This document shows positions 1,182 through 15,958 of a stretch of 23,755 bases of DNA, one piece after another (positions within the stretch are counted from its first letter, which is position 1; each line of letters starts with the position of its first letter). This DNA comes from a virus: positions 1-23,755 of the IMG/VR virus record IMGVR_UViG_3300009001_000097. One strand, written 5' to 3'. Below the pieces are notes generated by a model. It did not search any database. It worked only from the letters and a program-made list of their open reading frames with translations, and had not been told where the DNA came from. The translations under genes and the position numbers were made by a program.

Positions 1182-2579
1182 TTATGCGAGGATGTTGTCC
1201 ACACGGAAGATGCGGTAGTACTGGTTAGTACGGTTTGCAGCAAGACCGTCAGCAGGAGTTGCGCCCACGAATGGGTTAGACGCCATACCGTAACGAGTCT
1301 TGAACCCGATGCGAGGTTGGAAGTCATTCTCACCAACCGCACGTACCATCTGTAGAGGAACGTATGGGCAGTAGAAGATACCTGCGTCATAGGGGTTAGT
1401 ACCTTTGTAACCAACAGTTACGTAGTCAGCAACCGCATATGGGTCGATGTAAACACGAGTACGACCGTTCAATACACCTGCGAACGTGTTACCAGTGTCG
1501 TCAACCTGAAGGTTAGTAGACAACGCAGGTGCGTAATCCAACATGCCAGCAGCAACAAGTGCAGTAGCAACGTCAGAAGAACATACTACGATGTTACCTT
1601 TACCGCGACGAGTTTCTTTCGCAATAACGTTAGCTTCACGCTCTAACTGAACCAACAGACCCTTGAACTTCTCAACTGACCAACGACCATCTGCGTCAGT
1701 TGAAAGATCGAAGATACCAGCAGTCTGGAGACCAGCTTGACGGCAACCGATTTTCGCCTGTGCATTGATAGTACGGATGATTTCACGGTTGATCTCTGCC
1801 AAGATTTCAGTTGACAGAATGTTCGCAAGTTCAGTTTCTGCATCAAGACCGTGAATTGCTTTCAAGTCCTGTGCAAGTTCGAGAGTGTATTCTGCTTTCA
1901 ACGCACGGCTGCGAGCAGTTACAGTTGCTTTCTCGATTGTGAAACCCATTTCTGCGAAATCTGAACCGGCAGGAGTTCCCAACGCTTCTGCATCAGCAGT
2001 AGGCATACCAGCTGAAAGAGGTGATGCGCCAAGACCAGAAGGAACGTAAGATGCACCAGAGTCGACAAGAGACGAGTCATTGTCAGTGTCAGTTACACCA
2101 GCAAGACCTGAAGGACCTTTGTTACCAGCAACGTCACCAGAGTCCATAGAAAGACTTGAGTCACCAGAGTAAGGTGCTTGCGCTTCGTCGAAGAATGCTT
2201 CTGCACCAGCAGTTGCACCACCACGAGTAGTCTTGTAACGTGATTTCATTGCAAAGATAAGACCAGTAGGACCAGTCATAGGCTGAACGCCTGCAAGGTC
2301 GTATGCCATTAAGTTAGGCATTGCACGACGAACAAGTGCGATCAAAACGGGGTTCCAGTTTGCACCAGTAGTACCGTGAGCTGCACCAGTTACAGAAGCG
2401 TTTGAGTTAGCTGCAACTTCGTTCAATTGCATTTCTTTCTGCATTGCCATCTCTTGGTTTTCCAAGATAGCAGCAGTTACCGCTTTACGGTGATGGTCGG
2501 TAATTTTACCAGCTGATTCTTCTTCAAGAATCGGTGACCATTTTTCGATCAAACGATCGTATGATAATTCTGTACTCAT
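1182..2579 (-). CDS. 23: Major capsid protein gp23
   Basis: The 465-residue product aligns over its length with T4 gp23 (521 residues). Landmarks are WSPILEEE and ILENQE near the N-terminus, RRAMPNLMAYDLAGVQPM around residue 90, EMGFTIEK, AEYTLELAQDLKAIHGLDAE, STEILAEINREI, RVYIDPYA, TVGYKGTNPYDAGIFYCPYV and FQPRIGFKTRYG. The T4 protein is an HK97-fold subunit whose N-terminal propeptide is removed by gp21. Here the best aligned site is LNE at residues 52-54, before VAANSNASV. It is shorter than T4 gp23, mainly in the region before EMGF, where a Gly/Ser/Asp-rich stretch replaces longer T4 sequence. AAGGAG lies 7 bases before the ATG. It is the last gene of the head operon, 11 bases after gp22, and is followed by a strong terminator. 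Confidence 0.97.
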   Translation of the reverse strand: MSTELSYDRLIEKWSPILEEESAGKITDHHRKAVTAAILENQEMAMQKEMQLNEVAANSNASVTGAAHGTTGANWNPVLIALVRRAMPNLMAYDLAGVQPMTGPTGLIFAMKSRYKTTRGGATAGAEAFFDEAQAPYSGDSSLSMDSGDVAGNKGPSGLAGVTDTDNDSSLVDSGASYVPSGLGASPLSAGMPTADAEALGTPAGSDFAEMGFTIEKATVTARSRALKAEYTLELAQDLKAIHGLDAETELANILSTEILAEINREIIRTINAQAKIGCRQAGLQTAGIFDLSTDADGRWSVEKFKGLLVQLEREANVIAKETRRGKGNIVVCSSDVATALVAAGMLDYAPALSTNLQVDDTGNTFAGVLNGRTRVYIDPYAVADYVTVGYKGTNPYDAGIFYCPYVPLQMVRAVGENDFQPRIGFKTRYGMASNPFVGATPADGLAANRTNQYYRIFRVDNILA

Positions 2580-2590
2580 TAGAATACTCC

Positions 2591-3634
2591 TTATTTTTTA
2601 TTGGTTTTTCGAATTGTGTTAAGGTACTGACTCATAATAGAATTAACTTCTACTGATTGATCAGCTTCCCAATCCTCATTGATTTCTTCTTCTTGAGAAA
2701 CAACTTCTTTCTTGAAGTATGACTCTTTCACAGTTTTAACTTTCTGTGCAAAAGATTCTTCGTCTTCAAAGTCAAGTGATTCAACCAATGAGTTCAGTTT
2801 TTCTACTTGAGTTTCTGCAAGATCACGTGAAGCTTCACGGATAATTGCTTGACGCTTGTAGTTCTCAAGTGATTCTGACATTTCAAGAACGTTAGCAGTT
2901 TGCTTGTTGAGTTTCTCTTCGAGTTCTTCAACTTGTTCTGCTAGTTCATCAACTAGGTCAACCTTGGATTCGGGTACGTCGATGTAAGATTCAACGAACA
3001 GGTCTTTCAACTTGCCCATGAAGTCTTCAGCAATTTCAGTACGGAGACCAGTCTCGACAGCGAGTTTGTTCTCTTCCATCCAATTTTCAACTACATAGTT
3101 GAGGTAGGAATCAACCTTCTCAACGAGGTCTGCACGAGTTGCTTGCAGTTCTTCATCAAGACGTGATTGATATTCATTTTCCATTCGCTCTACTTCTTCA
3201 GCGAGTTTGGAACGAATTGCAGTTTCGAAAATTACAGCAGTTTTCGCTTTGAACTCATCTGACAAAGTTGCTTCGCTTTCCACGAGTGCGTCCAGTTCGT
3301 CTGTGTATGCGAATTCGGGTAATTCAACTGCATCACCGTCTTCGTCCACTTCGAAACCTTCCATCTTGCTGTACATTGCATGTAGATCTGCTTTCTTCAT
3401 TGCAGATAACTTACCGTACATAGCGTTCAACATACCTGCTTTAGTTTTCGGCATCGGATCTTGCTTACCAGTGTCACCATTGCGAGAAGGCGCCTTTTTA
3501 GTTGCGTCTGTCGCTTTGTCGGTAGCTGCGATCGACTGTGCTTCATCTCCTACAGGCATTTTTTGAGCACTCGCTTCCTCGATTTGGTTGTCCTCATCGA
3601 CAGGAAGCTCAACATTTTGATCCAGTTCAGACAT
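2591..3634 (-). CDS. 22: Prohead scaffold (assembly core) protein gp22
   Basis: The 347-residue product is highly acidic and almost entirely helical or coiled-coil in appearance, as expected of the internal scaffold around which gp23 assembles. It sits in the conserved 21-22-23 order. The N-terminal ~60 residues look disordered (Glu/Asp/Ala/Lys-rich). Residues about 63-93 include the Met/Lys-rich KTKAGMLNAMYGKLSAM segment, which resembles recurring scaffold sequence in T4-like phages. Long heptad-rich stretches follow, such as LVDELAEQVEELEEKLNKQ. Many (I/L)xE tripeptides are present, consistent with digestion by gp21 during maturation. The AAGGAG ribosome site is formed by the last codons (Lys-Glu-stop) of gp21, with an 8-base spacer. 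Confidence 0.9.
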   Translation of the reverse strand: MSELDQNVELPVDEDNQIEEASAQKMPVGDEAQSIAATDKATDATKKAPSRNGDTGKQDPMPKTKAGMLNAMYGKLSAMKKADLHAMYSKMEGFEVDEDGDAVELPEFAYTDELDALVESEATLSDEFKAKTAVIFETAIRSKLAEEVERMENEYQSRLDEELQATRADLVEKVDSYLNYVVENWMEENKLAVETGLRTEIAEDFMGKLKDLFVESYIDVPESKVDLVDELAEQVEELEEKLNKQTANVLEMSESLENYKRQAIIREASRDLAETQVEKLNSLVESLDFEDEESFAQKVKTVKESYFKKEVVSQEEEINEDWEADQSVEVNSIMSQYLNTIRKTNKK

Positions 3635-3639
3635 ATGTT

Positions 3640-4305
3640 TTACTCCTTAAAGTTTGATTTGAGCAACGAGAGGAAATTTTTGTACTCACGAACCTGCGTC
3701 TCATAGAGATGCTTTTTCGGAGCGGTTTTAATTTCAGTCTCCATTTCTTCAATTACTTGAGGTTGAATAATGCCATTATTCCATACCCATTCTACGCCTT
3801 CCATGATACCGTTAACAAATGCGCCAGGAGCACTAGGATCCTGTACAATATCAACTGTATTCAAAATGAAGTCGTCACGGACGTATGCAACACCATTCCT
3901 ATTCTCAAGACTACCCATACCACGAGTTGACACACCTAGTTGAACACCACCTTCAAGAAGACCCTTAACGATCTTACCCATCGGAGTATCCAATATTTGT
4001 GCCTTTCCCATCACATCATTGCCTTCCATTCGAAGGTCAGTGATAAGATGTGAAACTTTGTCCAAGTTAACAGTCGGTCCATCTGGGTGATTTAACTCAC
4101 CAACCGCACGTTTCTTGGAAACTTGTTCTGTAACGTATTTATTGACAGCCTTTTCCATGATCGATTTGGGGTAGATTCTACCGTTACGATTCTTTTGTTC
4201 GGACTGTGCAAATACTCCTTCTATGACGAACGACTTGTCACCGTTTTCTTTACGTTCAACGATGCACTGTACGTCATGTTCTGTATATTCGGAAATCAGT
4301 TTCAT
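3640..4305 (-). CDS. 21: Prohead maturation protease gp21
   Basis: A 221-residue serine protease of the T4 gp21 (U9/S78) type. The visible hallmarks are QKNRNGRIYPKSIM at 37-50, the catalytic His in VGELNHPDG (H73), the nucleophile Ser in LGVSTRGMG (S126), and an acidic residue in VDIVQDPSAPGAF (D152 or D156). From family knowledge, it cleaves scaffold, core and capsid precursors after (I/L)xE, then digests itself before DNA packaging. Its own sequence has such sites near the C-terminus, for example LYE at 200-202. The ATG follows the stop of the 67-residue gene directly (TAAATG), with AAAGGA just upstream, so the two are probably coupled. Confidence 0.95.
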   Translation of the reverse strand: MKLISEYTEHDVQCIVERKENGDKSFVIEGVFAQSEQKNRNGRIYPKSIMEKAVNKYVTEQVSKKRAVGELNHPDGPTVNLDKVSHLITDLRMEGNDVMGKAQILDTPMGKIVKGLLEGGVQLGVSTRGMGSLENRNGVAYVRDDFILNTVDIVQDPSAPGAFVNGIMEGVEWVWNNGIIQPQVIEEMETEIKTAPKKHLYETQVREYKNFLSLLKSNFKE

Positions 4306-4509
4306 TTACATTTCCTTTGCGAATTCAACACCCATTTTTTCAGCCTCTTTTTGAGACTTATAGGTGTCTAGTTTGTCACCGTCGATATAGACAGTGAACC
4401 CTTTATTATCTTTATGCACCATAACAGAGTGTTTGTTCACCTTTTTGGAAAAGACGTGATCGCCCGCAGGCATCTTTTTTGCTTCTCTTATCTGTTTAAA
4501 TGATTTCAT
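4306..4509 (-). CDS. Small prohead core or internal protein with capsid-targeting-like leader (gp68 position)
   Basis: A 67-residue, Lys-rich protein at the place T4 has gene 68, just upstream of gp21. It begins MKSFKQIREAKK. T4 internal head proteins begin MKTYQEFIAEA, a capsid-targeting sequence cut by gp21 after the (I/L)xE tripeptide. Here the equivalent tripeptide is I7-R8-E9, which would release a basic 58-residue mature protein. The remainder, with VMVHKDNKGFTVYIDGDKL and a C-terminal amphipathic helix, suggests a small beta hairpin plus helix. Its ATG overlaps the upstream stop as ATGA, and its own stop abuts the gp21 ATG. It could be the gp68 equivalent or a packaged internal protein; I recognise no other function. 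Confidence 0.7.
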   Translation of the reverse strand: MKSFKQIREAKKMPAGDHVFSKKVNKHSVMVHKDNKGFTVYIDGDKLDTYKSQKEAEKMGVEFAKEM

Positions 4510-5147
4510 CTAAATTGTTCCAAATCGGTTACTACCATTTGCCATGTTTCGCTTAATCTTATTCGTACCTCGGATACTTCGATCATTTGTTCGAATATAC
4601 CCTTACTCCAATTGTTATCACACTCTACAATAATTGCCTTGTATGCATATTTTGATAACTTGTGAAAGATCTCTCTGATCTTTTCAAAATCATTTGTATG
4701 ATATACCGGAAAAAATCTTTCCAAAATTATATAATCTCTTTTTTCACAACCCTCGATCTCGAAGTTTTCGTCATAAATGGTATTACATACGTAATCAACA
4801 TTTACACCGAACGCCTCTCTGACCTTCGTACAACATTCAAGTTGTTCGTCCCATTCTATAGTTTTTATATCTAATGGTTTCCCTTTCAGTCGGTTAACGA
4901 GTTCTAAATAACCCGCTGCTATACCCATGTCTAAAAAGGTAGAGTTCGGTGCAAGTTCCACGAGACTTGTATGAACAATCTCGTTAAACTTAACCGCACT
5001 CTTCATACCACCTAACCACATATATTGAGTAGTACTAAAGTTCATCGGTTTTAAAAAAAGACCTTTATTTGCCATAACCCAATATACATGATCATGTGCG
5101 GCCTTTTCAAACGTTCTAATTAAATTATCGTTAATTATCGTTGTCAT
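4506..5147 (-). CDS. Class I SAM-methyltransferase-like protein inserted in the prohead core operon
   Basis: A 213-residue protein with a plausible Rossmann methyltransferase core. A motif-I-like FLDMGIAAGY lies at 71-80, an acidic motif-II-like TIEWD at 96-100, and a hydrophobic RDYIILERFF strand at 138-146. Motif I is slightly degenerate (LDxGxxxG). No DNA-methyltransferase signature (DPPY, NPPY or PCQ) is present, so any activity is more likely on small molecule, protein or RNA. T4 has no gene here between 67 and 68. The ATG lacks a Shine-Dalgarno sequence and lies only five bases after a late promoter box, so expression may be leaderless or weak. The next in-frame ATG (residue 25) has no better site. 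Its base composition looks more AT-rich than gp21 or gp23. It could also be a pseudo-enzyme. Confidence 0.6.
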   Translation of the reverse strand: MTTIINDNLIRTFEKAAHDHVYWVMANKGLFLKPMNFSTTQYMWLGGMKSAVKFNEIVHTSLVELAPNSTFLDMGIAAGYLELVNRLKGKPLDIKTIEWDEQLECCTKVREAFGVNVDYVCNTIYDENFEIEGCEKRDYIILERFFPVYHTNDFEKIREIFHKLSKYAYKAIIVECDNNWSKGIFEQMIEVSEVRIRLSETWQMVVTDLEQFR

Positions 5148-5171: not shown

Positions 5172-5462
5172 TTAAGATTTGTCGTCTTCATCGTCAAAAT
5201 CATATTCATCTTCTTCGAATTCATTGTTATTGTCATCGACTTCTTCTTCGGCATCTTGTTGCGCATTGTGCATTGTATCCGCAATACGGATTTTTGCTTG
5301 ATCCAAAGTGTCTTGTAGACGACTTCCTATAATGTCACTAAACGATTGTTCCGCATCCGTGTACTGTCCAGTTTCGATCGATTTTAATAAATCTTCGATT
5401 GGGTTGTTATTTTCAATCGGATCCGCTTCCACTTCTGCAACAATTACGTCTTCGTCAGCCAT
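5172..5462 (-). CDS. 67: Prohead core protein gp67-like
   Basis: A 96-residue, extremely acidic protein. It has a helical segment (IEDLLKSIETGQYTDAEQSF, then helices to about residue 70) followed by an Asp/Glu tail ending EYDFDDEDDKS. T4 gp67 (80 residues) has the same plan: a short helical N-terminus with an SNDLVAARKLF-type segment, then a poly-Asp/Glu tail. From T4, gp67 is a prohead core component that is processed into internal peptides. Its place before gp68, 21, 22 and 23 agrees. The SD (AGGAG) overlaps the TAG stop of the upstream gene, with a 7-base spacer. Confidence 0.8.
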   Translation of the reverse strand: MADEDVIVAEVEADPIENNNPIEDLLKSIETGQYTDAEQSFSDIIGSRLQDTLDQAKIRIADTMHNAQQDAEEEVDDNNNEFEEDEYDFDDEDDKS

Positions 5463-5472
5463 AATTTATCTC

Positions 5473-6126
5473 CTATTTTAATGCTAAAAATTCACCTTTC
5501 TTCAAGGTTTTATCTACCTGTGTTTTCACATCAGTCAAGTCACTATCTATATCTTTCACTAATGTACCATATGAATTCGTACCCGTGTTTAAAAGTTTCG
5601 TATATTGCCAAACTTTCTCTGCAATGTTTAAATAATCCTGTTCTGTCACTGCCGCAGTCGCAACCAATTGGTCAACCAAGTTAGAACGTGTCAAGTTCAC
5701 CGATACACCTTCTGCAAACAAAAATGGGTTTTGTCCTGTCTCTCGTGTGTAGATGTTACCGTTCACAGTAAGAATATACGGTGTCTTACTTGCAAATGGT
5801 TGTATTCTCCAGCCATTCTCAAGGAAGAACGTCGAACCAACATTCAAAGTATCGTTCAATGGTTCACCACCGATAGCGTCAATCGCTGGCGGCCAGTTTG
5901 ATCCATATGGATACTCTAAATTTCCAAGTACCCACTCTTTCCATGCCGAGTATACATCAACTTTGATGTCTAGTACTGTTACACCTTCCGCAACATATAT
6001 GATTTTGTTCGGACCATCAAACGTTACTTTCTGTGTGCCGTAATAACCACCCGCACCAAATCCTCCACCACTTCCGTCAGAATCTGCCCACAGAGTCCAA
6101 TGTCCGTACTGGAAAACAACATTCAT
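5473..6126 (-). CDS. Virion structural protein, marine T4-like family, unknown function
   Basis: A 217-residue protein with a Gly-rich N-terminus (SDGSGGGFGAGGYYG), then beta-rich sequence with KVTFDGPNKIIYVAEGVTVL and DVYSAWKEW. These motifs recur, to my knowledge, in uncharacterised virion proteins of marine phages. The region IGGEPL...FFLENGWRIQPF looks like a compact beta domain (about residues 80-140). The C-terminal about 60 residues (YLNIAEKVWQYTK, then a heptad-like DIDSDLTDVKTQVDKTLK) could trimerise. It overlaps the upstream 855-residue gene by one base (TAATG), so the two are probably translated together. Likely a fibre or decoration component; the exact site on the virion is unknown. 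Confidence 0.55.
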   Translation of the reverse strand: MNVVFQYGHWTLWADSDGSGGGFGAGGYYGTQKVTFDGPNKIIYVAEGVTVLDIKVDVYSAWKEWVLGNLEYPYGSNWPPAIDAIGGEPLNDTLNVGSTFFLENGWRIQPFASKTPYILTVNGNIYTRETGQNPFLFAEGVSVNLTRSNLVDQLVATAAVTEQDYLNIAEKVWQYTKLLNTGTNSYGTLVKDIDSDLTDVKTQVDKTLKKGEFLALK

Positions 6127-8693
6127 TACTGCTTGATCTCGTTCCAGAATATCGAGAAGTTGACTTCAATCTTACCTTTGCTGGGATCATAAAATGAACT
6201 GTCTGCTTTGCTAGTACCCTGTGGTTTCGCAAACACACAGAAATACACTTCAGGTCCATATCCAGACAAAATAAAACCACCAGTCGCAACACTACCAGTG
6301 TTTCCTGGCCATGTCAGACTGTCACCGTTTGGATTAGTTGCTCTGCTCAACGCTGAAGTGTCCCAAGGTGTTTGGAAATTCTTATCGAGATACAGTTCGG
6401 CTTTATCATTGTCAATCATACGCAGATAGAAAATTGCGCCGGCACCGTTTGTCTTTCCGTCGTTGATACCGTATGTCGCATCTTCACCGATAGCATATGG
6501 AATTTGTTCGAACTGAATCGCATTACCTTCACGATGCAAAGAATAACCAACGCCTGTAGGTGGTGTATTAATTTGAATAACAGTTGCTTGACCCGCACTC
6601 GGTGACTGAAACACTTTGAGAATCGGACAACGGTTGTTACCACCATCGTCTGCCGAATTCTTGAACGCTGATTGTAATGAAGTAAACGCACCACTCAAGT
6701 CTTCCTGACCACCGTATCCACCAGTGTATGTTACAAGTGAGTGAATACCACTATTACGGAACAGATTTACAGTATCAATTCCTGCTTTGCCGTATGCCAT
6801 CACGCTATTGCCGGGATCATTTGGTTCTATAGGAAGGAACACCGGATCAACCCCAAGAGCGGTGGCTTCTGTTGTGTCATATAAATTGACTACACGATTG
6901 ACACCCGAGATTACAGGATTCACATAAATCTGAATACTCATTTGAACTTCGCTACCGTCTTCACGATACGCATACGCACGAGCAGAACGAGGTAGATGAA
7001 GCGTTCGATTAGGATGATTCACACCTTTGATGCGTGCTTGAGGTGCAAGAATACCAATCAAATAATATTCATCATTGACAGGCATGTGGAAATTGACATT
7101 TTCATTACCGTCGAAGGCAACACTTGGTGCCTTATCTACGACAATAGTAGTTGAGTTGATGATATCAGATACACGAGTTTCTTTAGGAAGATAACCATCG
7201 CTATCACTAACGATCCAGCCTGGCTTGATACCAGTGAGATTCGGAACAGTCAATGTAGTGCCAGATGATGTAATACTCGTCTTTGTAGTAATACCACGAT
7301 CACCGAATGCGTCCTTCAACCCTTGAACATCGTTCATGTTAGCGGGATCAATCAACGCCTTGAAGTATTCGGTTCGTCCGCTTCCTAATGTTGATGTTTG
7401 AAGATCTGCTTCTGAATATACAGCGCAACACCATACGAACATACTGGAAGCGCCAGTTACTGCAATATCTTTCATTTGATGTTGACAGAATCGCAACGGT
7501 AAAGAACCTGTCTGTGAGTGAGGAACACCACCATTGCTATCGTGATAGTATTCGTGAATTACAACACGCTGACCTTCATGATATGTTCCGAAACGAACAC
7601 GACCCGCACCCAACCACTGAATATCTAACCAATAGATGTTATCGTCTGTTAAATTGAAAACTTTACCCGAGTTACCGGTTCCGTCTACAGGGTCACCGTT
7701 CCATCCATCCAATGTGGTTGATTGAACAACACCATCTGAAGTAATAATGGTTTCGTTCTTTCGCATGATTCGTTCAGTTATAGTACCCGTCGCAGACGAA
7801 CGAATAACAAATTCTAATCCATTTGTACCAGTACAACGGAAGAAGTAACCGTTACCACCAGTCAGTTCATAAGTTGCGCTCGGATTGGTGAGATCAGCAT
7901 CGTATTCACCGTCGAAGTATCCCCATTCACGCATCACACCAGTTTTACCCGTATCGCCCAATGCGACAGTCATAATCGCTTGTTGTGACAAGCCAGGAAA
8001 ATAGTGGTGATATGTGTTAGAGGTCATCTGCGCACGAATCGCATCAGGACCGAAGTTAGTTGTTGCGGTATTGGTCTGACCTTCAACACCCGTTGTCAAT
8101 ACAGCGGCATGAAGATTGTCGTTGTGAGATACTCTGGCGCCTTTTGTCAAGCCGTTTACTGTTTTCGAAAACTGGTCGGGAAGAAAGTTGTTAGCGAAAG
8201 TATAGTCACCAAGAATAGAAGCACCCGATGTACGAAGTTTACCAAACGCATCAAGTTGTGGCAGACCTTCTGCGAATCGCATGTTCATAGAACCAGTAGC
8301 GTCAACATCAACACCAAATTCTGGATTGTCATAACCCAAAATGTGATTCGAGTTTATATAAACATCACGAAAACTTTGAACTGTGGCAAGAACAGTTGAA
8401 CCATCTTCATCAAGGATGTTTGCTCCAACCTTCGGATCAAGGTTCTCATACTTTGCCGCTTTCGCATAGTGTACTTCAAGAATACCTGTCGTAGATGTGA
8501 TTTGATAAACACCGTGAACATGAATAGAATAAACAGCATCGTCACTGAATGTTGTGAAGTATCTTTCGCCAATGTCCCATGCGTATCCCGCAGGACTTAA
8601 ACCTGTATAGAATATTTCAGCGGTATGCGTCATTCGCACACGCTTACCTGCTCCATCTGGTGGGACTTGCAAGAATGTTCGTTCGCCTGCCAT
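6126..8693 (-). CDS. Large virion/fibre protein with a concanavalin-like domain
   Basis: An 855-residue beta-rich protein. DAFGKLRTS (148-156) followed by FANNF and QF is a recurring motif of marine phage structural proteins. A putative lectin-like jelly roll follows at about 225-450, including GYFFRC (282-287), LEFVIRSS, WNGD (331-334), DIQWLGAGRVRFG (357-369) and LPLRF (398-402). Further on are a short repeat-type module at about 470-540 (KPGWIVSDSDG) and C-terminal domains with FYLRMIDNDKAELYLDK and GYGPEVYFCVFAKPQG. No signal peptide or membrane segment is visible. It has its own late promoter 33 bases upstream and a GGAG site. It may carry receptor-binding or adhesive function, by analogy with lectin-like fibre domains. 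Confidence 0.6.
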   Translation of the reverse strand: MAGERTFLQVPPDGAGKRVRMTHTAEIFYTGLSPAGYAWDIGERYFTTFSDDAVYSIHVHGVYQITSTTGILEVHYAKAAKYENLDPKVGANILDEDGSTVLATVQSFRDVYINSNHILGYDNPEFGVDVDATGSMNMRFAEGLPQLDAFGKLRTSGASILGDYTFANNFLPDQFSKTVNGLTKGARVSHNDNLHAAVLTTGVEGQTNTATTNFGPDAIRAQMTSNTYHHYFPGLSQQAIMTVALGDTGKTGVMREWGYFDGEYDADLTNPSATYELTGGNGYFFRCTGTNGLEFVIRSSATGTITERIMRKNETIITSDGVVQSTTLDGWNGDPVDGTGNSGKVFNLTDDNIYWLDIQWLGAGRVRFGTYHEGQRVVIHEYYHDSNGGVPHSQTGSLPLRFCQHQMKDIAVTGASSMFVWCCAVYSEADLQTSTLGSGRTEYFKALIDPANMNDVQGLKDAFGDRGITTKTSITSSGTTLTVPNLTGIKPGWIVSDSDGYLPKETRVSDIINSTTIVVDKAPSVAFDGNENVNFHMPVNDEYYLIGILAPQARIKGVNHPNRTLHLPRSARAYAYREDGSEVQMSIQIYVNPVISGVNRVVNLYDTTEATALGVDPVFLPIEPNDPGNSVMAYGKAGIDTVNLFRNSGIHSLVTYTGGYGGQEDLSGAFTSLQSAFKNSADDGGNNRCPILKVFQSPSAGQATVIQINTPPTGVGYSLHREGNAIQFEQIPYAIGEDATYGINDGKTNGAGAIFYLRMIDNDKAELYLDKNFQTPWDTSALSRATNPNGDSLTWPGNTGSVATGGFILSGYGPEVYFCVFAKPQGTSKADSSFYDPSKGKIEVNFSIFWNEIKQ

Positions 8694-8726
8694 TTATATT
8701 ACTCCGAAAATAAACTTGTATTCATG

Positions 8727-8734
8727 TATTTATA
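8727..8734 (-). promoter_or_regulatory. T4-type late promoter TATAAATA
   Basis: A perfect TATAAATA two bases beyond the stop codon of the 574-residue gene. Its downstream edge lies 33 bases before the ATG at 8693. It gives the 855-residue and 217-residue gene pair its own late start. Confidence 0.8.
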
Positions 8735-8736
8735 CG

Positions 8737-10461
8737 TCATGGATTACTAAATACACGGTCTGTGACCTGCTGAATTGGAATGGTTGTGTTTGTGCTAGGA
8801 ACTGCAAACGCAAACAATGGTTCTGCAATCCAATTCAAATTGAAAATTCGAATGTCATAACTCGCACCAACAGTAGCGGTGAAAGAAAACGTGTTGTCAT
8901 CTGTACTACCCGAGGCGGCCGCATCCGGTCCTGTCAATCCAGTTCCAGTTCCACCAGACAATGTTTCAACACCTGCTACCGCAGTCGTCGTACCTGCTTC
9001 GAAAACTCGAACTTCTGTACCGTCTTTCAACTGACTGAATGCCAGTGTAATAGTAGAAATGATCGTTACAGTTCCAGTACTATTAGTTGTATCAACGGTT
9101 GGTGTGTCACCCCCACTTACGTTGATAGTGATGGGCGATCCTGAAGTGTTGACAATAACTTCATTACCTGTTCCACCGTTTGTTGCGGCATAACCATCAT
9201 AAGTAAAATTATTGAAGGTGAACGGTGAATTTGTGGCATCAGATATCTCGATCGCATGACCAGTTCCACCCGACACGAACATCAGATCAGATACGTTTGT
9301 GGTATTATTCAACAATACAGCGGCTTCAGCAGTTCCCGTAGATGTTGTGTTTCGAATCGTGTTGTTCTTGAATTCAGTTGTTCCTACCGTGATTTGAGAA
9401 CAGTTTCGAAATACACACGCAAAGATTTCATGATTAGGACCCGCAGTCCCATCAGTGGTGAATGTGAACCCCTGATCAAATCCATCAAAAGTAGTTGCGT
9501 ACAAACCCAATGAGTTGATGTTGGCGCTTGATGCTGTGAATGCCGCACCGACCGCTGGAGGCACAGTAAGTGTACATCCCGCAGAACCTTCACCCGCATT
9601 GGTACCACGTGTTCCTAAAATAAAAGTTGTCGTTCCTGTTGCGTTTCCTGTGACCGTAATAAAGTATTTATCCGTAGAAAATCCACGATCTTCGAATACG
9701 ATTGTTTGTGCCGTATCTTCGAAGTCAACAGATCCTGTTCCTGACGCATCACCAAAGGTAAAAGGACCCTGAAGTCCAAAAGTGTCGGACGCTAGTTCTC
9801 GAATGATTCCATATGCCGCACCAGTTGAACTCGCTACGTTCTGGCCAGGATGATCTGTTTCAGCACGGTCCCGTTGTGCGATTTCTAGAAACTTCCCTTC
9901 TGTACCTGTGCCACCGCCAGTGATAATCAGACCGCCATTACCGTATGCGATCAAATCCATGAAGCAGTTTTCTACACCACCCACTGACTTCTGAAGTGTT
10001 TTGAAAGCGTTACCGATACGAGTAATGTTGGTAAGGTTTATACTTCCTGCGTTGCCGTTGAAAGCGGTTGTTGTTGCGGGAAGAGAACCTGTGTCAATTA
10101 CGAAACACTGCCACAATACAGGACCGTCAGTGTGTCTAAATCCTGCACCGTTAGAACCACCAACATGATAACCAATGTTGTTTGTGTTATCACCGAGATA
10201 GATCTGTACACCACCGTTAGCAGTTGTGTCCATCACACCCTGTGGTAGTAACCAACAATAAACCAAGGTGTTCGTCAAGTTTGTGGTTGTGCTGAAGTAA
10301 GCAGTTTCGGTTGCGTTCGAAACCTGCTGACCCAAACTACCAGTCGCTTCAACAGGGTTGGGGTTAGAGGTAAAAACAGTAACACCATCCGAAGCAGTCC
10401 AACCAGTTGTGGCGTCTGCTTCTGTTGGTATTACTCTAGTGTCGGTGATGATGACTGCCAT
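8737..10461 (-). CDS. Beta-helix-like virion protein with SNP C-terminus
   Basis: A 574-residue Thr/Gly/Asn-rich protein. The central part (about residues 180-440) alternates short strands and turns, for example NCFMDLIAYGNGGLIITGGG and later FKNNTIRNTTSTGTAEAAVL and GHAIEISDATNSPFTFNNF. This is the pattern of right-handed parallel beta-helices in phage fibres and tailspikes. No polysaccharide-lyase catalytic motif was recognised. The last residues, QQVTDRVFSNP, resemble the VERNYSNP end of the 644-residue protein nearby. Its ATG overlaps the stop of the SPOUT-like gene (TAATG), preceded by GAAGAG. Probably a virion surface or fibre component. Confidence 0.55.
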   Translation of the reverse strand: MAVIITDTRVIPTEADATTGWTASDGVTVFTSNPNPVEATGSLGQQVSNATETAYFSTTTNLTNTLVYCWLLPQGVMDTTANGGVQIYLGDNTNNIGYHVGGSNGAGFRHTDGPVLWQCFVIDTGSLPATTTAFNGNAGSINLTNITRIGNAFKTLQKSVGGVENCFMDLIAYGNGGLIITGGGTGTEGKFLEIAQRDRAETDHPGQNVASSTGAAYGIIRELASDTFGLQGPFTFGDASGTGSVDFEDTAQTIVFEDRGFSTDKYFITVTGNATGTTTFILGTRGTNAGEGSAGCTLTVPPAVGAAFTASSANINSLGLYATTFDGFDQGFTFTTDGTAGPNHEIFACVFRNCSQITVGTTEFKNNTIRNTTSTGTAEAAVLLNNTTNVSDLMFVSGGTGHAIEISDATNSPFTFNNFTYDGYAATNGGTGNEVIVNTSGSPITINVSGGDTPTVDTTNSTGTVTIISTITLAFSQLKDGTEVRVFEAGTTTAVAGVETLSGGTGTGLTGPDAAASGSTDDNTFSFTATVGASYDIRIFNLNWIAEPLFAFAVPSTNTTIPIQQVTDRVFSNP

Positions 10462-10880
10462 TATCTACTCTTCAAATAACGATCATACAATATCATTGTG
10501 ACTGCTTGATGTCCCCAAAATCCACCATTGTTTGTGACAGAGGGAATTTTTACCGCAACGTCAATACCTTCACGGAAATGGGTTAGATACGGACTGTATC
10601 CTGTTCTGCCAACAATATACATTGCGTTTTCGGGATGGACAAAGTCAGGCAATTCTGTCGTTGCCGCTTCATCCACGTACACGTGTGTCATGGTCGAATT
10701 TTCTGATAGAATGGTATCAATTGACGTGTGTTCAATCACTGCCGCCTTTTCGAGTCCTGTGATTGGTGTCATATAAAATTCATTGACACCATATTCCATC
10801 AAGGGATGTTTCCACCAATTGAACTCTTGCCAAGGTGTATCCCATCCTCGTTCCCAATGTCCTACTACCTTGACTGTCAT
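10461..10880 (-). CDS. Small protein with SPOUT/TrmH-methyltransferase-like pattern (tentative)
   Basis: A 139-residue protein of unknown function. Its order of elements resembles SpoU/TrmH-type trefoil-knot RNA methyltransferases. The N-terminal VKVVGHWER and HPLMEYGVNEFYMTPI (25-40) fit the first strand and the 'gene-near FGV' helix-strand. HPENAMYIVGRTG (82-94) resembles motif 2, and VAVKIPSVTNNG followed by HQAVTMILYDR (108-134) resembles motif 3. The canonical motif-1 Asn/Arg and the motif-3 SLNVS residues are not preserved, so it may be inactive or a convergent look-alike. It starts one base after the stop of the wHTH gene, with GAGG upstream, and overlaps the beta-helix-like gene (TAATG), so all three are one translational unit. 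Confidence 0.5.
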   Translation of the reverse strand: MTVKVVGHWERGWDTPWQEFNWWKHPLMEYGVNEFYMTPITGLEKAAVIEHTSIDTILSENSTMTHVYVDEAATTELPDFVHPENAMYIVGRTGYSPYLTHFREGIDVAVKIPSVTNNGGFWGHQAVTMILYDRYLKSR

Positions 10881-10881
10881 G

Positions 10882-11142
10882 TTATCCCTCTAATATCTGT
10901 TTAAGTGTTCCGTCTAAATCTTTATCTAGTTCTTCTTTTAGTTTCAAAACATCAGTCAAATCAAATTCCCACACTACATTTTTCTCTGCTGTTTCCACAA
11001 ACGAAACCGTGCCGTCATCATTATATTTCATGTCGGCATCCATTTTAATCTTTGCGGGAAGACGTTTGTCCTGAACAATGTAAAGAACCTCATCCGAGGT
11101 TTTACCTAGAATTTTTGCTGTTTGATCTAAATCTAAATTCAT
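10882..11142 (-). CDS. Predicted excisionase-like winged-HTH protein
   Basis: An 86-residue protein beginning MNLDLDQTAKILGKTSDEVL. The segment LDQTAKILGKTSDEVLYIVQDKRLPAKI looks like the helix-turn-helix plus wing of excisionase/AlpA/MerR-like domains, where a typical pattern is (VE)xAxxLGVSxxTVYxxIxxGxLPA. VVWEFDLTDVLKLKEEL fits the wing strand and last helix of the same fold. ATG codons at 11154, 11145 and 11142 are in frame. GGAG (11152-11149) overlaps the first and lies 3 and 6 bases before the other two, so 11142 is the best start (11145 possible). It would bind DNA or act as a small adaptor, and is unusual inside a virion gene block. It follows a terminator hairpin directly. Confidence 0.55.
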   Translation of the reverse strand: MNLDLDQTAKILGKTSDEVLYIVQDKRLPAKIKMDADMKYNDDGTVSFVETAEKNVVWEFDLTDVLKLKEELDKDLDGTLKQILEG

Positions 11143-11155
11143 CATTATCTCCATG

Positions 11156-11180
11156 AAAAAATAGGGGGGACGAACCCCCC
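11156..11180 (-). terminator. Probable rho-independent terminator after the 644-residue gene
   Basis: On the minus strand, GGGGGG, a TTCGT loop and CCCCCC form a 6-bp GC stem followed by TATTTTTT. It starts 12 bases after the stop of the 644-residue gene. Its T-run ends one base before the first ATG of the next gene. No promoter is visible between it and the wHTH gene, so it may act as a partial (attenuating) terminator. Confidence 0.75.
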
Positions 11181-11192
11181 TTCAATCATTAC

Positions 11193-13127
11193 TTATGGGT
11201 TACTGTAGTTTCGTTCTACAGGTGATACTACCGAGATCGAGTTAGTGTTAACTCGTGTCAGAGTAGAAGTCTGTTGAACCCAAGTTCCACTTTCGAGACC
11301 AATTGCACGAACGTTAACCGCAACGTTATCAGCATTGTTCTCACCCACTTTGTTCAAACGATCTTTCTGTGAGTTGTTATCAAATGCGTAGGTGAATTCG
11401 AATATACCATCCGTCAAATTACCTGTAGCAAGTGTACTAACTGCCGCTTGTGTAATATTGTTTTCAGAAGTTGCAGCAGCTGAATCAAGTAACAACGAAG
11501 CAGGAGAGTTAATTGGATGAGTTCGAATCGCATCACCCGCAGTGTTTAACGTCTCGTTAACTGGTACAACAGTATCATCCAGTGTGATCGCAGCAAAGTT
11601 ATTCGAATCGAAAATAGAGGTTATTTTCCAAATAACGTTGTGGTTTCCACCTGTACCAGAAGATTTGTGGACTCGGAAATACGCATCCGCATCTAGTGCA
11701 GGGTTCAAACCATTTGCGTTTTGAACAGTCAATACTGGAGTGAATGTAGTTCCTGCCAATGTGAAGTTCGCACTGTCTTGAGAACCGTTTGGACCAACGT
11801 TCGAAATTGTGACCGAAGTTCCAATTTCATCACCGACAACATAACCACGAGTGTAGTCGTAGAATACGAACACTTTAGCGTTTGCACCGTCATTCAAGAT
11901 ATCCTGCGAGAATGAAATCTGAACAGCAGTCGAGAACGGGAATGAACGTAAAGTATCGTTGTCATCTCTCAACTGGGTGTTGTTGATGTCAGCAGCGTTA
12001 ATGCTGGTGATCGCAACACCAGTCAACGTACCACTTTGGTCTGCGTTTGTAGCCAGTTTGGTTGTTAAGGTAGAACCAACGAACGTCACCAGTTCGTCTT
12101 GCAGTTTACCGATTTTTGTAGTACCCGCCGCAAACTCAATGTCTGAATCTTGACGCAACTGATACTGAACCCAAGAATACAGTTCTGGATTGGTTAAGTT
12201 TGTACCAGTACCACCTGCCGCATTGATTTTAATACCGAAGTCATAAGGTCCGTCCAACAAGTCTTCTGCATAACCGAATGTATTAGATGCTTCTGAAGTT
12301 GCAAGGTATTCGATGGTAGGACCATCACCTTGCAATGAGTATTTCTGACCAGCAGCAGCTGCTGCTTGAATTGTCGCATCACTTACCGAAAGGTTAAGAT
12401 CCTGTTGTTCAACCAATGGGAATCGTTGAACATTGTATGGTAAAGTAGTACCAGCCGACAAACCGATGTCGGTAGTATCTGTTTGGTCAAATGTCCATGC
12501 CAATGTTGATTGAGGTGCTTGGAATGGAGTTGATCGAATAAACAAACGAAGAATATCACCACGACGATCAAATGAAGTCGAATCCAAGGTTTGTACCGCT
12601 TGGTTTGCCTCACCAGCATAGTCGTAGTCAAAAGGACCTGCTTTTGCAGTACCGTTTGCAGAATCAAAAAAAGCATAGTATACTGTATGCTGGTTAATTG
12701 TTGCAACGTTATCTTGGTTTGGTTCACCTTGAATGTTACCCAATGAAATCGTACCGATATATTCACGTTTCAATGTGGTGTTATCTACATCGAATTCTCT
12801 CCAACCACCAGTACGCAACAACGAACGAGACGAATCATCCGCAGGTGTCCAACCGAAACGGAATTCGAACTGTTCTGGTGTAATCGCAACCAATGGGAAA
12901 GGATATGCGATTAGATCTTTACTATTAGGATCGTCTTTCCATTCTTCTTTTAAGAACGAATATAATGCCTGAAGAGTAACACCATCATTCGACAAAACCG
13001 GAGTTTTAGGAGACGCACTATTGTTTCGTACTTTAATAGTTCGTAAGGATGTATCAATGTAGATACTTGCCCCAGCCGAGTCGACAGCGTTATCCTTAAG
13101 CAAATCGGGATCTGTTATTAATGCCAT
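11193..13127 (-). CDS. Large virion structural protein of marine T4-like type
   Basis: A 644-residue protein. The N-terminal about 120 residues contain LSNDGVTLQALYSFLKEEWK (46-65), YPFPLVAITPEQFEFRFGW (75-93) and LLRTGGWREFD. This set recurs, as I recall, in large virion structural proteins of cyanophages and pelagiphages. The rest is beta-rich, Asn/Thr/Ser-rich, with repeated small domains and no transmembrane segment. The C-terminus is VERNYSNP, matching the DRVFSNP end of the 574-residue protein. A perfect late promoter lies 41 bases upstream, GGAG sits 7 bases before the ATG, and a terminator follows. Probably a fibre, whisker or capsid-decoration protein. Confidence 0.6.
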   Translation of the reverse strand: MALITDPDLLKDNAVDSAGASIYIDTSLRTIKVRNNSASPKTPVLSNDGVTLQALYSFLKEEWKDDPNSKDLIAYPFPLVAITPEQFEFRFGWTPADDSSRSLLRTGGWREFDVDNTTLKREYIGTISLGNIQGEPNQDNVATINQHTVYYAFFDSANGTAKAGPFDYDYAGEANQAVQTLDSTSFDRRGDILRLFIRSTPFQAPQSTLAWTFDQTDTTDIGLSAGTTLPYNVQRFPLVEQQDLNLSVSDATIQAAAAAGQKYSLQGDGPTIEYLATSEASNTFGYAEDLLDGPYDFGIKINAAGGTGTNLTNPELYSWVQYQLRQDSDIEFAAGTTKIGKLQDELVTFVGSTLTTKLATNADQSGTLTGVAITSINAADINNTQLRDDNDTLRSFPFSTAVQISFSQDILNDGANAKVFVFYDYTRGYVVGDEIGTSVTISNVGPNGSQDSANFTLAGTTFTPVLTVQNANGLNPALDADAYFRVHKSSGTGGNHNVIWKITSIFDSNNFAAITLDDTVVPVNETLNTAGDAIRTHPINSPASLLLDSAAATSENNITQAAVSTLATGNLTDGIFEFTYAFDNNSQKDRLNKVGENNADNVAVNVRAIGLESGTWVQQTSTLTRVNTNSISVVSPVERNYSNP

Positions 13128-13167
13128 TTATTTTCTCCGAATTTGATTTGGATTGTTGTTACTACCA

Positions 13168-13175
13168 TATTTATA
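13168..13175 (-). promoter_or_regulatory. T4-type late promoter TATAAATA
   Basis: A perfect TATAAATA just past the stop codon of the collagen-like gene and 41 bases before the ATG of the 644-residue virion protein. Confidence 0.8.
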
Positions 13176-13176
13176 A

Positions 13177-14271
13177 TTAAGAATAACTAAATGTCGCACG
13201 ATCATCCCAAATTTTATCAAAATTAGCAGATCCTTCTGCCCATAGTATATTGAAGTCGTCACCCACCTCTTCAATTCTTTTAATTCGCCATTTCGCTTCT
13301 GACACGTCAGTGCCAGGAAGTGCCTCTCCAATATAATAGAAAGACCCCTCTTGATCAATTAATTTGTTGTATTGAACTTCCAATTCTGTTTTCAACCTAT
13401 CTAATATGTTTACGAAACTTTCTACAACAAACTTCTTTTTTGTTGGGTCGAATATTAATATACTGTCCCCAACAATACTTGACAGCTTGGTTTTATCCAC
13501 ATCCGCATTGTCAAGTATCTTGTAAGAACCACCACCACCTAATGTACTCAATGATGTTTGGAGATTCTTCAGTTGTCTTTCAACATTAGTGTTTATTTGA
13601 CTTTGTTGTTTAGAAACCTTTGAGTTAAAGTCTTTTAATAGTTCTTCGAATCTGGGTTCATAGTCAGGAGCGGGATCACCCTTATCACCTTTATCGCCTT
13701 TTGGACCAGTTGGCCCTTGCGGACCTATCTCACCTCTTTCGCCCCTTTCGCCCTGTGCCCCTTGTTCGCCACGTGGACCCGTCTCTCCGACATCTCCTTT
13801 CTTTCCTTCTGGACCTTGTGGGCCGATATCGCCTCGATCGCCTTTATCTCCCTTTGACCCAGTCTGTCCTGCATCACCTTTTTCGCCTTTATCACCTTTA
13901 GAACCTACTTCTCCTTTTTCTCCTCGTTCTCCACGAGGTCCTTGAATTCCTCGTTCCCCTTGTGGTCCTCTTTGTCCATCAGAACCACGATCGCCCTTTG
14001 GTCCAACAAGGCCCGCATCGCCTTTCTCACCCTGTTCGCCTTTTTCTCCAGTATCTCCTCGATCTCCCTTGTCCCCTTTGACACCTTTGTCTCCTTTGGG
14101 TCCCTGTAATCCGCGCTCACCTCGTGCACCTTGAGGTCCTCTTGGTCCAACCGGACCTTCACGCATGACAAGTTCATCGAGTCGTTGTTCGATTACTCGT
14201 TTCTGCTTCTCTAATTCTTCTCTTGCATATACAAGAGTAAAAGCAGTTGCAATCTTATCAATTTTGCTCAT
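13177..14271 (-). CDS. Collagen-like trimeric fibre protein
   Basis: A 364-residue protein in four parts. Residues 1-38 form a helical, coiled-coil-like start ([20 protein letters not shown]). Residues 39-200 are 54 uninterrupted Gly-X-Y triplets rich in GDKGD, GERGE and GPQGP. Residues about 203-240 form a second coiled coil ([16 protein letters not shown]). The C-terminal domain (about 245-364) includes [22 protein letters not shown] and [14 protein letters not shown], a module I associate with marine phage fibre proteins. Pro/Lys/Asp/Glu-rich triplets can form stable triple helices without hydroxyproline. The ATG lies 14 bases inside the portal gene end and lacks a strong SD, so it probably relies on translational coupling with gp20. 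Likely a thin head or tail fibre. Confidence 0.85.
13672..14157 (-). repeat. Collagen triplet repeat tract (54 Gly-X-Y units)
   Basis: A 9-base-periodic coding tract of 162 codons with Gly at every third position and no interruption, from residue 39 to 200 of the collagen-like protein. GDKGD and GPQGP motifs recur. Such tracts can change length by slippage or recombination. Confidence 0.9.
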
Positions 14272-15958
14272 TTAGACGTGCCATATACCTAGTCAATTCT
14301 TCAGTCAATTCATCTTCATGTGTGGGTATATATCGTTCCTGTTTAGGTTTTTCCGCCTCTTTTTCTTTCTGTCTTTCTATTTCACTTTTTGGAGGAACCA
14401 CTTCTACAGGGACGGGTTTTGCCTCCGCAGGTTGTTTTTCTGTTTCTCGTTCTTCTTGATCTGGTATCTCACCGGACTTTTCTTCTCCGTCTATTTCTTT
14501 CTTCATCTGTTTGATGTCTTCATCAGACAATCGTAAGACATTTTTTAATATCCATTCTTTAGACAGATAGTCACCCACGAACGGAGTCATCTCATTCAAG
14601 AGACTTGCACGTTCACGATAAATTTCCATCTCTTTGAGTTCTGTGAAGTGATTGTCTTTCACATAGTCAACGTAGATGTCGTCTTTCCACTCTTCCCAAT
14701 CTTGTTCTGTGATGATCTGTTTGAGCATCAATTGTTTTTTGAGAATACCCAAGAACACCCACGAGAAACGACGACGAAGTCTATCAATAAACTTCTGGAA
14801 TTTTACTTCATCCCGTGAGATTTCTGTAGAACGACCAAGAGAGAATTGTGCTTCCTGTTCTAAACGATTCACTGGGACGTTCAGAGAACGATACAATCGT
14901 TTCTGAAAATAGATGATGTCATCTATCTGTCCCAGATTATCGCCGCCTGGCAGTGTTGAGATTTCTGTACCACGACCGTTTTCTCTACGAGGCAACCAAA
15001 AGTCTTCCAACATAGACATGTGTTTACGATCGTCTTTTAATTGTCCTGTGTTTGCATCATAGACAAGTTTGTTACGATACTTTGCCATGATGTCTTTCAT
15101 GTACTGATCTGCTTTACCACGTGGCAAGTTACCCACGTCAATATAAAATATTCGACGTTCGGGTGCACGTGCAAGACGATAGATGACCAGTGAGTCTTCC
15201 ATCATACGCAATTGGTTGATGGGTTTTAATGCTTTGTGTAGGTGCGATAGAATTTTTTTCTTACTTTCATCCAGTACACCAGAAGTAACATACGAAATCG
15301 CATCTGTAGAAATACGAACCGCAGTACTAGACTGACCCGGCTTTTCTTCGAAGACATAGTATTCATCAATTCTGTCGACTATCTTGACTCCGGTTTTTTG
15401 ATCTTTTTTGTATTTTACTTCTTTTATTTTACGAATACGTGCAGAATCTACATGACGTATTTCTTGAATACCTGCTTTGAGATTGGATTCGTTTGCCAAT
15501 AAGTGGTGAACAATTCTTCCATCAACATACCAAGAACGGAACAACTCGTGTCCAATCTCATTGAACTTTAACATCTGAACGATGTTATTAAATTCTTCTG
15601 TAATCTGATCTTTTATTTTATCGGATGCTTCGATATCATCCAAAGATATTTCGACAGATGATTCTAATTCAGACGCTGTAATAGATTCGTTGACAATTTC
15701 ATCAATTGCCATATCAACCTCGGGGTGCATCGAGACACCACGATATTGCATGACTAATTGATGATTGTCCTTTGCCTGATCACCTTCTAGGTTTACATAT
15801 TGACCATAGTAACCTGCCGCAGTAGTTACATATCCTGCGCCATCGGCATCAGTGGGTGGAACCGGAGACGGCAGTTTCTCTCTATCCGAAGACGAAGAAT
15901 TTTTCGATCTGCGAATCTCGAATCCAAATAATTTCAAAATGTTATTTTCTTCTGCCAT
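14258..15958 (-). CDS. 20: Portal vertex protein gp20
   Basis: A 566-residue homologue of T4 gp20 (524 residues). Conserved landmarks are [21 protein letters not shown] near 67-87, [38 protein letters not shown], the [19 protein letters not shown] and STLPGG core, [22 protein letters not shown], and FLGILKKQL. From T4, the dodecamer starts head assembly, is the packaging channel and docks the neck. The last about 80 residues form a Pro/Glu/Lys-rich charged linker (about 490-545) and a short terminal helix, longer than in T4. AGGA lies upstream of the ATG. A terminator hairpin precedes the gene and a weak late-promoter-like box overlaps that hairpin. Confidence 0.97.

Follow-up and report, generated by a model that had tools for sequence, protein, structure and literature searches.

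Capsid targeting and processing by a head protease have been worked out in phage T4 and in giant phages. Each of the T4 internal proteins IPI, IPII, and IPIII begins with a short leader of the form MK-x-aromatic that ends in (I/L)xE and holds the only site in the protein for the prohead protease gp21, while the body behind it is small, basic, and nearly free of such sites. The same leader is found on unrelated bodies, and these bodies, encoded by variable accessory genes, are highly diverse. The gp21 cleavage rule, L/I-X-E, is taken from PMC9026906, and the T4 rules applied throughout this work are drawn from PMC9026906, PMC9958956, and PMC7411985. In cyanophages, gp67 and gp68 are reported to be missing (PMC2984593), T4-GC190 is among the proteins detected in purified S-SM1 virions (PMC3037559), and cytidyltransferases are frequently detected in virions (PMC10665884). 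A literature search on capsid targeting sequences returned, by title, work on enterobacterial phages (T4, P1, P22, SPN3US) or T4-derived platforms, and no marine phage was found.

We analyzed a 23,755-base fragment from an IMG/VR virus record, called here the window, in which a gene for a 67-residue protein adjoins the gene for gp21. An earlier note, made from the letters of the window, had read the product as a packaged internal protein with a capsid-targeting leader. We consider it probable that the protein has a capsid-targeting leader removable by gp21, and that a mildly basic protein of about 58 residues would then stay in the head. The argument starts from what can be read in the sequences themselves: the leader, its site, their conservation, the presence of the leader on unrelated proteins, and a conserved target motif in gp23.

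Genomic context of the 67-residue gene

The window encodes a T4-type head module on the minus strand, in the order portal gp20, gp67-like protein, variable ORF, 67-residue ORF, gp21, gp22, gp23 (Table 1). The 67-residue ORF runs from an ATG at 4509 to a stop at 4306-4308, and its product is MKSFKQIREAKKMPAGDHVFSKKVNKHSVMVHKDNKGFTVYIDGDKLDTYKSQKEAEKMGVEFAKEM. The stop directly precedes the gp21 ATG at 4305, leaving a gap of zero, and the position immediately upstream of the protease gene given in the earlier note is thereby confirmed.

Table 1. Features of the head module in the window, with the basis for each assignment.
Feature	Coordinates	Strand	Basis or remark
67-residue gene, proposed head cargo protein with capsid-targeting-type leader	4306..4509	-	ORF plus homologues in 124 loci, adjoining gp21
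Leader, residues 1-9, MKSFKQIRE	4483..4509	-	Conserved in family, common to unrelated proteins; AlphaFold2 helix 4-12
Predicted gp21 cleavage site I-R-E, cut before Ala10	4483..4491	-	Sole (I/L)xE in protein
Predicted mature body, residues 10-67, four strands and C-terminal helix	4309..4482	-	AlphaFold2; no further cleavage sites
gp21 prohead protease (Peptidase_S77)	3640..4305	-	PF03420 8.3e-41, phrog_207 1.1e-79; GELNH and GVSTRG motifs as in T4 gp21
gp22 scaffold, (I/L)xE-rich	2591..3634	-	PF25623 2.1e-66; 14 sites vs 6.2 expected
gp23 major capsid protein	1182..2579	-	PF07068 2.2e-147
Predicted gp23 maturation site L-N-E, residues 52-54	2418..2426	-	Last (I/L)xE ahead of capsid core
gp67-like prohead core protein	5172..5462	-	phrog_1064 6.5e-5; Pfam GP67 under cut-off
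Variable insert gene between gp67-like and 67-residue genes	4506..5147	-	Stop overlaps start of 67-residue gene as ATGA

Searches of Pfam and PHROG gave no significant match for the variable insert ORF. Between the gp67-like gene and the 67-residue gene, relatives carry in its place a glycosyltransferase (L092, PF04488), a sulfotransferase (L116, PF03567), or an ORF that is similar and likewise unidentified. About 8.8 kb of genes (window 5473-14257) separates the portal gene from the gp67-like gene, and within this interval lies a collagen-like GxY-repeat protein (13177-14271); in Phage C48C1, unlike the window, the gp67-like gene directly follows the portal gene. The gp67-like protein of the window contains no (I/L)xE site, against 1.9 expected and three in T4 gp67, and therefore may not be degraded in the T4 manner.

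Distribution of the protein family

A tblastn search of 50,697 phage records gave a single clear relative, from Phage C48C1 (E 6e-9), a phage for which a literature search found no paper. From IMG/VR we gathered 47 loci with the 67-residue protein as query and the 80 closest with gp21 as query. A homologue is present in 124 of the loci gathered, and in 77 of the 80 closest gp21 loci (absent in L099, L113, and L114); its distance from gp21 is -4 to +6 nt in every measured locus except one. This breadth and tight spacing establish that the ORF is a real gene. Profile searches of the whole genomes of ACG-2014d, ACG-2014e, S-TIM4, P-SSM2, and S-CRM01, and of Vibrio phage Va3, Stenotrophomonas phage Yut2, and T4, found no homologue.

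The protein itself has no significant match in Pfam (best Y01A, E 0.017) or PHROG (best 0.04), and a sequence search of the PDB gave nothing convincing, the best match (0.073) being a de novo design. Across the family, weak and scattered matches to Y01A (17 of 53 members, best 4.6e-4) and to Arm-DNA-bind_4 (9 of 53, best 0.015) were not used as evidence of identity.

The C48C1 homologue is annotated from an internal ATG, but its reading frame extends upstream to a GTG at 14434, giving VRTFKELREAKDKT...; a leader is therefore present in the sequence and is masked by the annotated start. Three C48C1 genes in all seem to have been annotated from internal starts, with loss of the leader (L002:14434, L140:38514, and L140:41970), corresponding to CDS0012, CDS0089, and CDS0095 of OQ984149.1.

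The leader and its predicted cleavage site

Residues 7-9 of the window protein, IRE, fit the (I/L)xE rule, and no other such tripeptide occurs in its 67 residues. We examined 80 distinct homologues that are complete at the N-terminus. In 79 of them a site lies within residues 1-18, compared with 11.8 expected from shuffling residues 2-18, although these are related sequences and the counts are not independent events. The P1 Glu falls at residue 9 in 62 sequences and at residue 10 in 12, so that the family holds both spacings; more broadly, displaced sites (LSE, LQE, LEE, ILE) place it at 8, 9, 10, 13, or 15. That sites are displaced yet retained indicates that the motif itself is kept, beyond mere sequence. 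The sole exception among the 80 is L042, which has LRK in place of the site; L043 and L044 have the same sequence. This group, in which the Glu has been lost, is a natural setting in which to study loss of cleavage.

These counts uphold the earlier note as to the I-R-E tripeptide, and homologues lacking a leader site, which it had named as grounds for refutation, amount to that one sequence and not to the family as a whole. The likeness that it saw to the T4 capsid-targeting sequence (MKTYQEFIAEA) stands as to form, but the register is off by one, I7-x-E9 here against I8-x-E10 in T4. It had also suggested checking whether the leader is conserved while the rest varies, and this is not so: mean pairwise identity is 0.57 in the leader and 0.54 in the body. 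The linker between them averages 0.44 and has indels, so that variability, both in sequence and in length, is concentrated there, with leader and body about equally conserved.

The body, and calibration against T4

The part of the protein behind the leader is poor in sites throughout the family, with 14 (I/L)xE tripeptides against 24.8 expected by shuffling and none in the body of the window protein. Of the 14, 13 lie at the extreme C-terminus (IKELT or IKELR), where cutting would remove only two or three residues. The same count applied to T4 finds one site each in IPI, IPII, and IPIII, in the leader, and 16 in gp22, 3 in gp67, and 5 in gp68; by site profile, as read from sequence, the window protein is IP-like. 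The earlier description of a basic 58-residue product fits in its predicted length and the sign of its charge but is too strong in degree, the net charge being +5 for the precursor and only +3 for the product.

AlphaFold2, run with 60 family sequences, gave a model with a mean pLDDT of 79.6, comprising a helix at 4-12, strands at 17-24, 27-33, 38-42, and 45-50, and a helix at 53-66. Fold searches with it found no confident relative; the best matches (E 0.2 in the PDB, E 0.013 in BFVD) were to small uncharacterised phage proteins.

The gp21 of the window retains the GELNH and GVS(T)RG motifs of T4 gp21. In 73 of 74 distinct gp23 N-termini, an (I/L)xE lies 20-46 residues before a conserved anchor in the capsid core, the T4 equivalent being LTE|A. 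Because of these gp23 sites, and because of the enrichment of sites in gp22, the L/I-X-E specificity of gp21 has probably been kept in these phages.

With the T4 internal proteins, the window protein has in common small size, basic charge, an L/I-X-E propeptide with an MK-x-aromatic start, a modular leader, a body free of sites, and a gp21 of inferred specificity. Diverse bodies behind a leader that alone is conserved, as in T4, are not seen within the family and appear only when different leader-bearing families are compared. Its body has no visible homology to those of IPI, IPII, or IPIII, its leader is usually one residue shorter, and its gene adjoins gp21 and is conserved across the clade, in contrast to the accessory genes of T4.

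The leader on unrelated proteins

A 158-residue protein at L049 begins MKSFKQIREA, identical to the window protein over ten residues, and continues into an unrelated body. In L206-L210 the same ten residues precede a different body with additional domains behind it. When gene starts were scanned for the leader pattern, two large, related genomes exceeded chance, C48C1 with seven matches against 1.3 expected and contig G001 with six against 1.2 expected; both counts include the 67-residue homologue itself, and one of the G001 matches is doubtful. As positive controls, T4 ipII and ipIII were recovered, and T4 lysozyme e and dda appeared as false positives. The UvsW helicase of C48C1 and G002 also has a leader-like start, which we discounted as probably a false positive.

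Comparison of the cargo bodies showed them to be mostly unrelated, and the body of the window protein was linked to none. The links found joined the two P-loop kinases to each other, a pair of cyanophage proteins, and, weakly, a pair of C48C1 proteins, with no others. Among the cargo that could be identified are Zeta_toxin/AAA_33 kinases and a DUF6267 protein. The zeta-toxin-like P-loop kinases at L049:3482-4417 and L143:7316-7999, with leaders MLSFKKHLVE and MKSFKTFLDE, are candidates for packaged enzymes.

The cyanophage cytidyltransferase T4-GC190 opens with a leader of the same type in its T4-spaced form (MKSFSQFLTE in P-SSM2), and the cytidyltransferase of S-TIM4 begins MKKFNAFLIE. T4-GC190 differs from the window protein in its spacing, in its unrelated, much larger, enzyme-like body, and in having several more (I/L)xE sites. 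In this way a leader of this type is tied to a known virion protein, with the start taken from P-SSM2 and the virion detection from S-SM1, a tie that falls short of proof for the window protein.

Proposed function and alternative explanations

On the analogy of T4, the first nine residues, MKSFKQIRE, would act as a capsid targeting sequence and dock the protein onto the prohead core. Once the shell had closed, neighbouring gp21 would cut after Glu9, and the freed, mildly basic body of about 58 residues, offering no further gp21 sites, would remain in the head with the DNA. The body might bind DNA or neutralise charge, or it might serve in taking over the host. Conservation of the site, the scarcity of sites in the body, unrelated cargo with the same leader, and a T4-spaced leader on a protein detected in cyanophage virions together support the claim for the leader, and as computational support this is good; the retention in the head and possible co-injection with DNA that the earlier note proposed are predictions. 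Counting against the internal-protein reading are a body as conserved as the leader, the loss of Glu in L042-L044, a register off by one in most members, some false positives among leader-like motifs, and the mutual relatedness of the homologues behind the figure of 79 in 80.

The earlier note had left room for a gp68 role, alone or alongside the internal-protein reading. As a gp68-like component, the protein would help to build the prohead core and would not outlast maturation, being either destroyed or expelled, and the slot between gp67 and gp21 is indeed that of T4 gp68. Conservation throughout the clade, at 77 of the 80 closest gp21 loci, would befit a morphogenesis gene, and gp68 of T4 and its counterpart in Vibrio phage Va3 likewise open with a short (I/L)xE segment (MLLIPE and MKFISE). 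We judge this reading unlikely, as the two proteins are unrelated in sequence (hhalign probability 0.1% against the gp68 family, from a reference alignment of four sequences) and the window protein, half the length of T4 gp68, has one site where T4 gp68 has five and gp22 sixteen, lacking both the site-rich N-terminal half and the conserved basic C-terminal tail. Isolated cyanophages without the 67-residue gene, moreover, still build heads. Only the genome slot agrees with homology to gp68; the gene may have replaced gp68 in position, while profile comparison gives no support for descent from it.

A role as partner to gp21, inhibiting, chaperoning, or activating it, with the leader as a pseudo-substrate and gene coupling providing for stoichiometric assembly with the protease, would account for the overlap or abutment of the two genes within a few nucleotides in nearly all loci. 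We hold it to be quite improbable, since the same leader occurs on unrelated proteins encoded far from gp21 and so is not specific to a protease partner, and since gp21 is present, and the 67-residue gene missing, in three pelagiphage-like contigs (L099, L113, and L114) and in the cyanophages examined. That the protein is small and cytoplasmic, its leader no more than an N-terminal helix that resembles a targeting sequence by coincidence, would agree with the AlphaFold2 helix at residues 4-12 and with the possibility of one chance (I/L)xE in 67 residues (11.8 of 80 expected within residues 1-18), but is highly improbable given unrelated bodies with a common leader, a linker free to vary, and a site kept through shifts.

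A possible broader system of protein loading

Returning to the capsid-targeting reading, we see about an even chance that protein loading is a general system in marine T4-like phages, in which a shared MK-x-F-x-x-(F)(I/L)xE leader would send many unrelated proteins into the head and some of the cargo would be mosaic polyproteins with ESVELDEA-type linkers cut by gp21. The proposed cargo comprises zeta-toxin-like kinases, cytidyltransferase, DUF6267 proteins, and small basic proteins, with the 67-residue gene as a conserved, protease-coupled member. If the leader reading is true, the leader can be read as a tag, and with nothing but the sequence one could predict which of the many unannotated genes in abundant marine myoviruses encode proteins that are packaged and may be delivered into the host. 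The reading would also correct gene starts that mask leaders, and would explain the conserved, unnamed gene beside gp21.

Leader-bearing mosaic proteins were observed at L206:1061, L207:1501, L208:1501, L209:1501, and L143:18363-19607. The multidomain proteins of L206-L210 resemble in their mosaic domains the polyvalent proteins of phages and plasmids (PMC5512222), whereas the window protein has a single domain. Linkers between domains recur as ESVELDEA, ESVELEEA, and ESTELNEA, and (I/L)xE counts exceed those of shuffles, as in L207 with six against 2.7 (4 of 300 shuffles reach six). Judged by these features, the mosaic proteins look like cargo polyproteins processed by a head protease. One domain, DYPIYHKTYSDAMQASYAFA..., follows three different leader segments (L212, L216, L228, L243, and L244; L205; L206-L210), which suggests shuffling of cargo domains.
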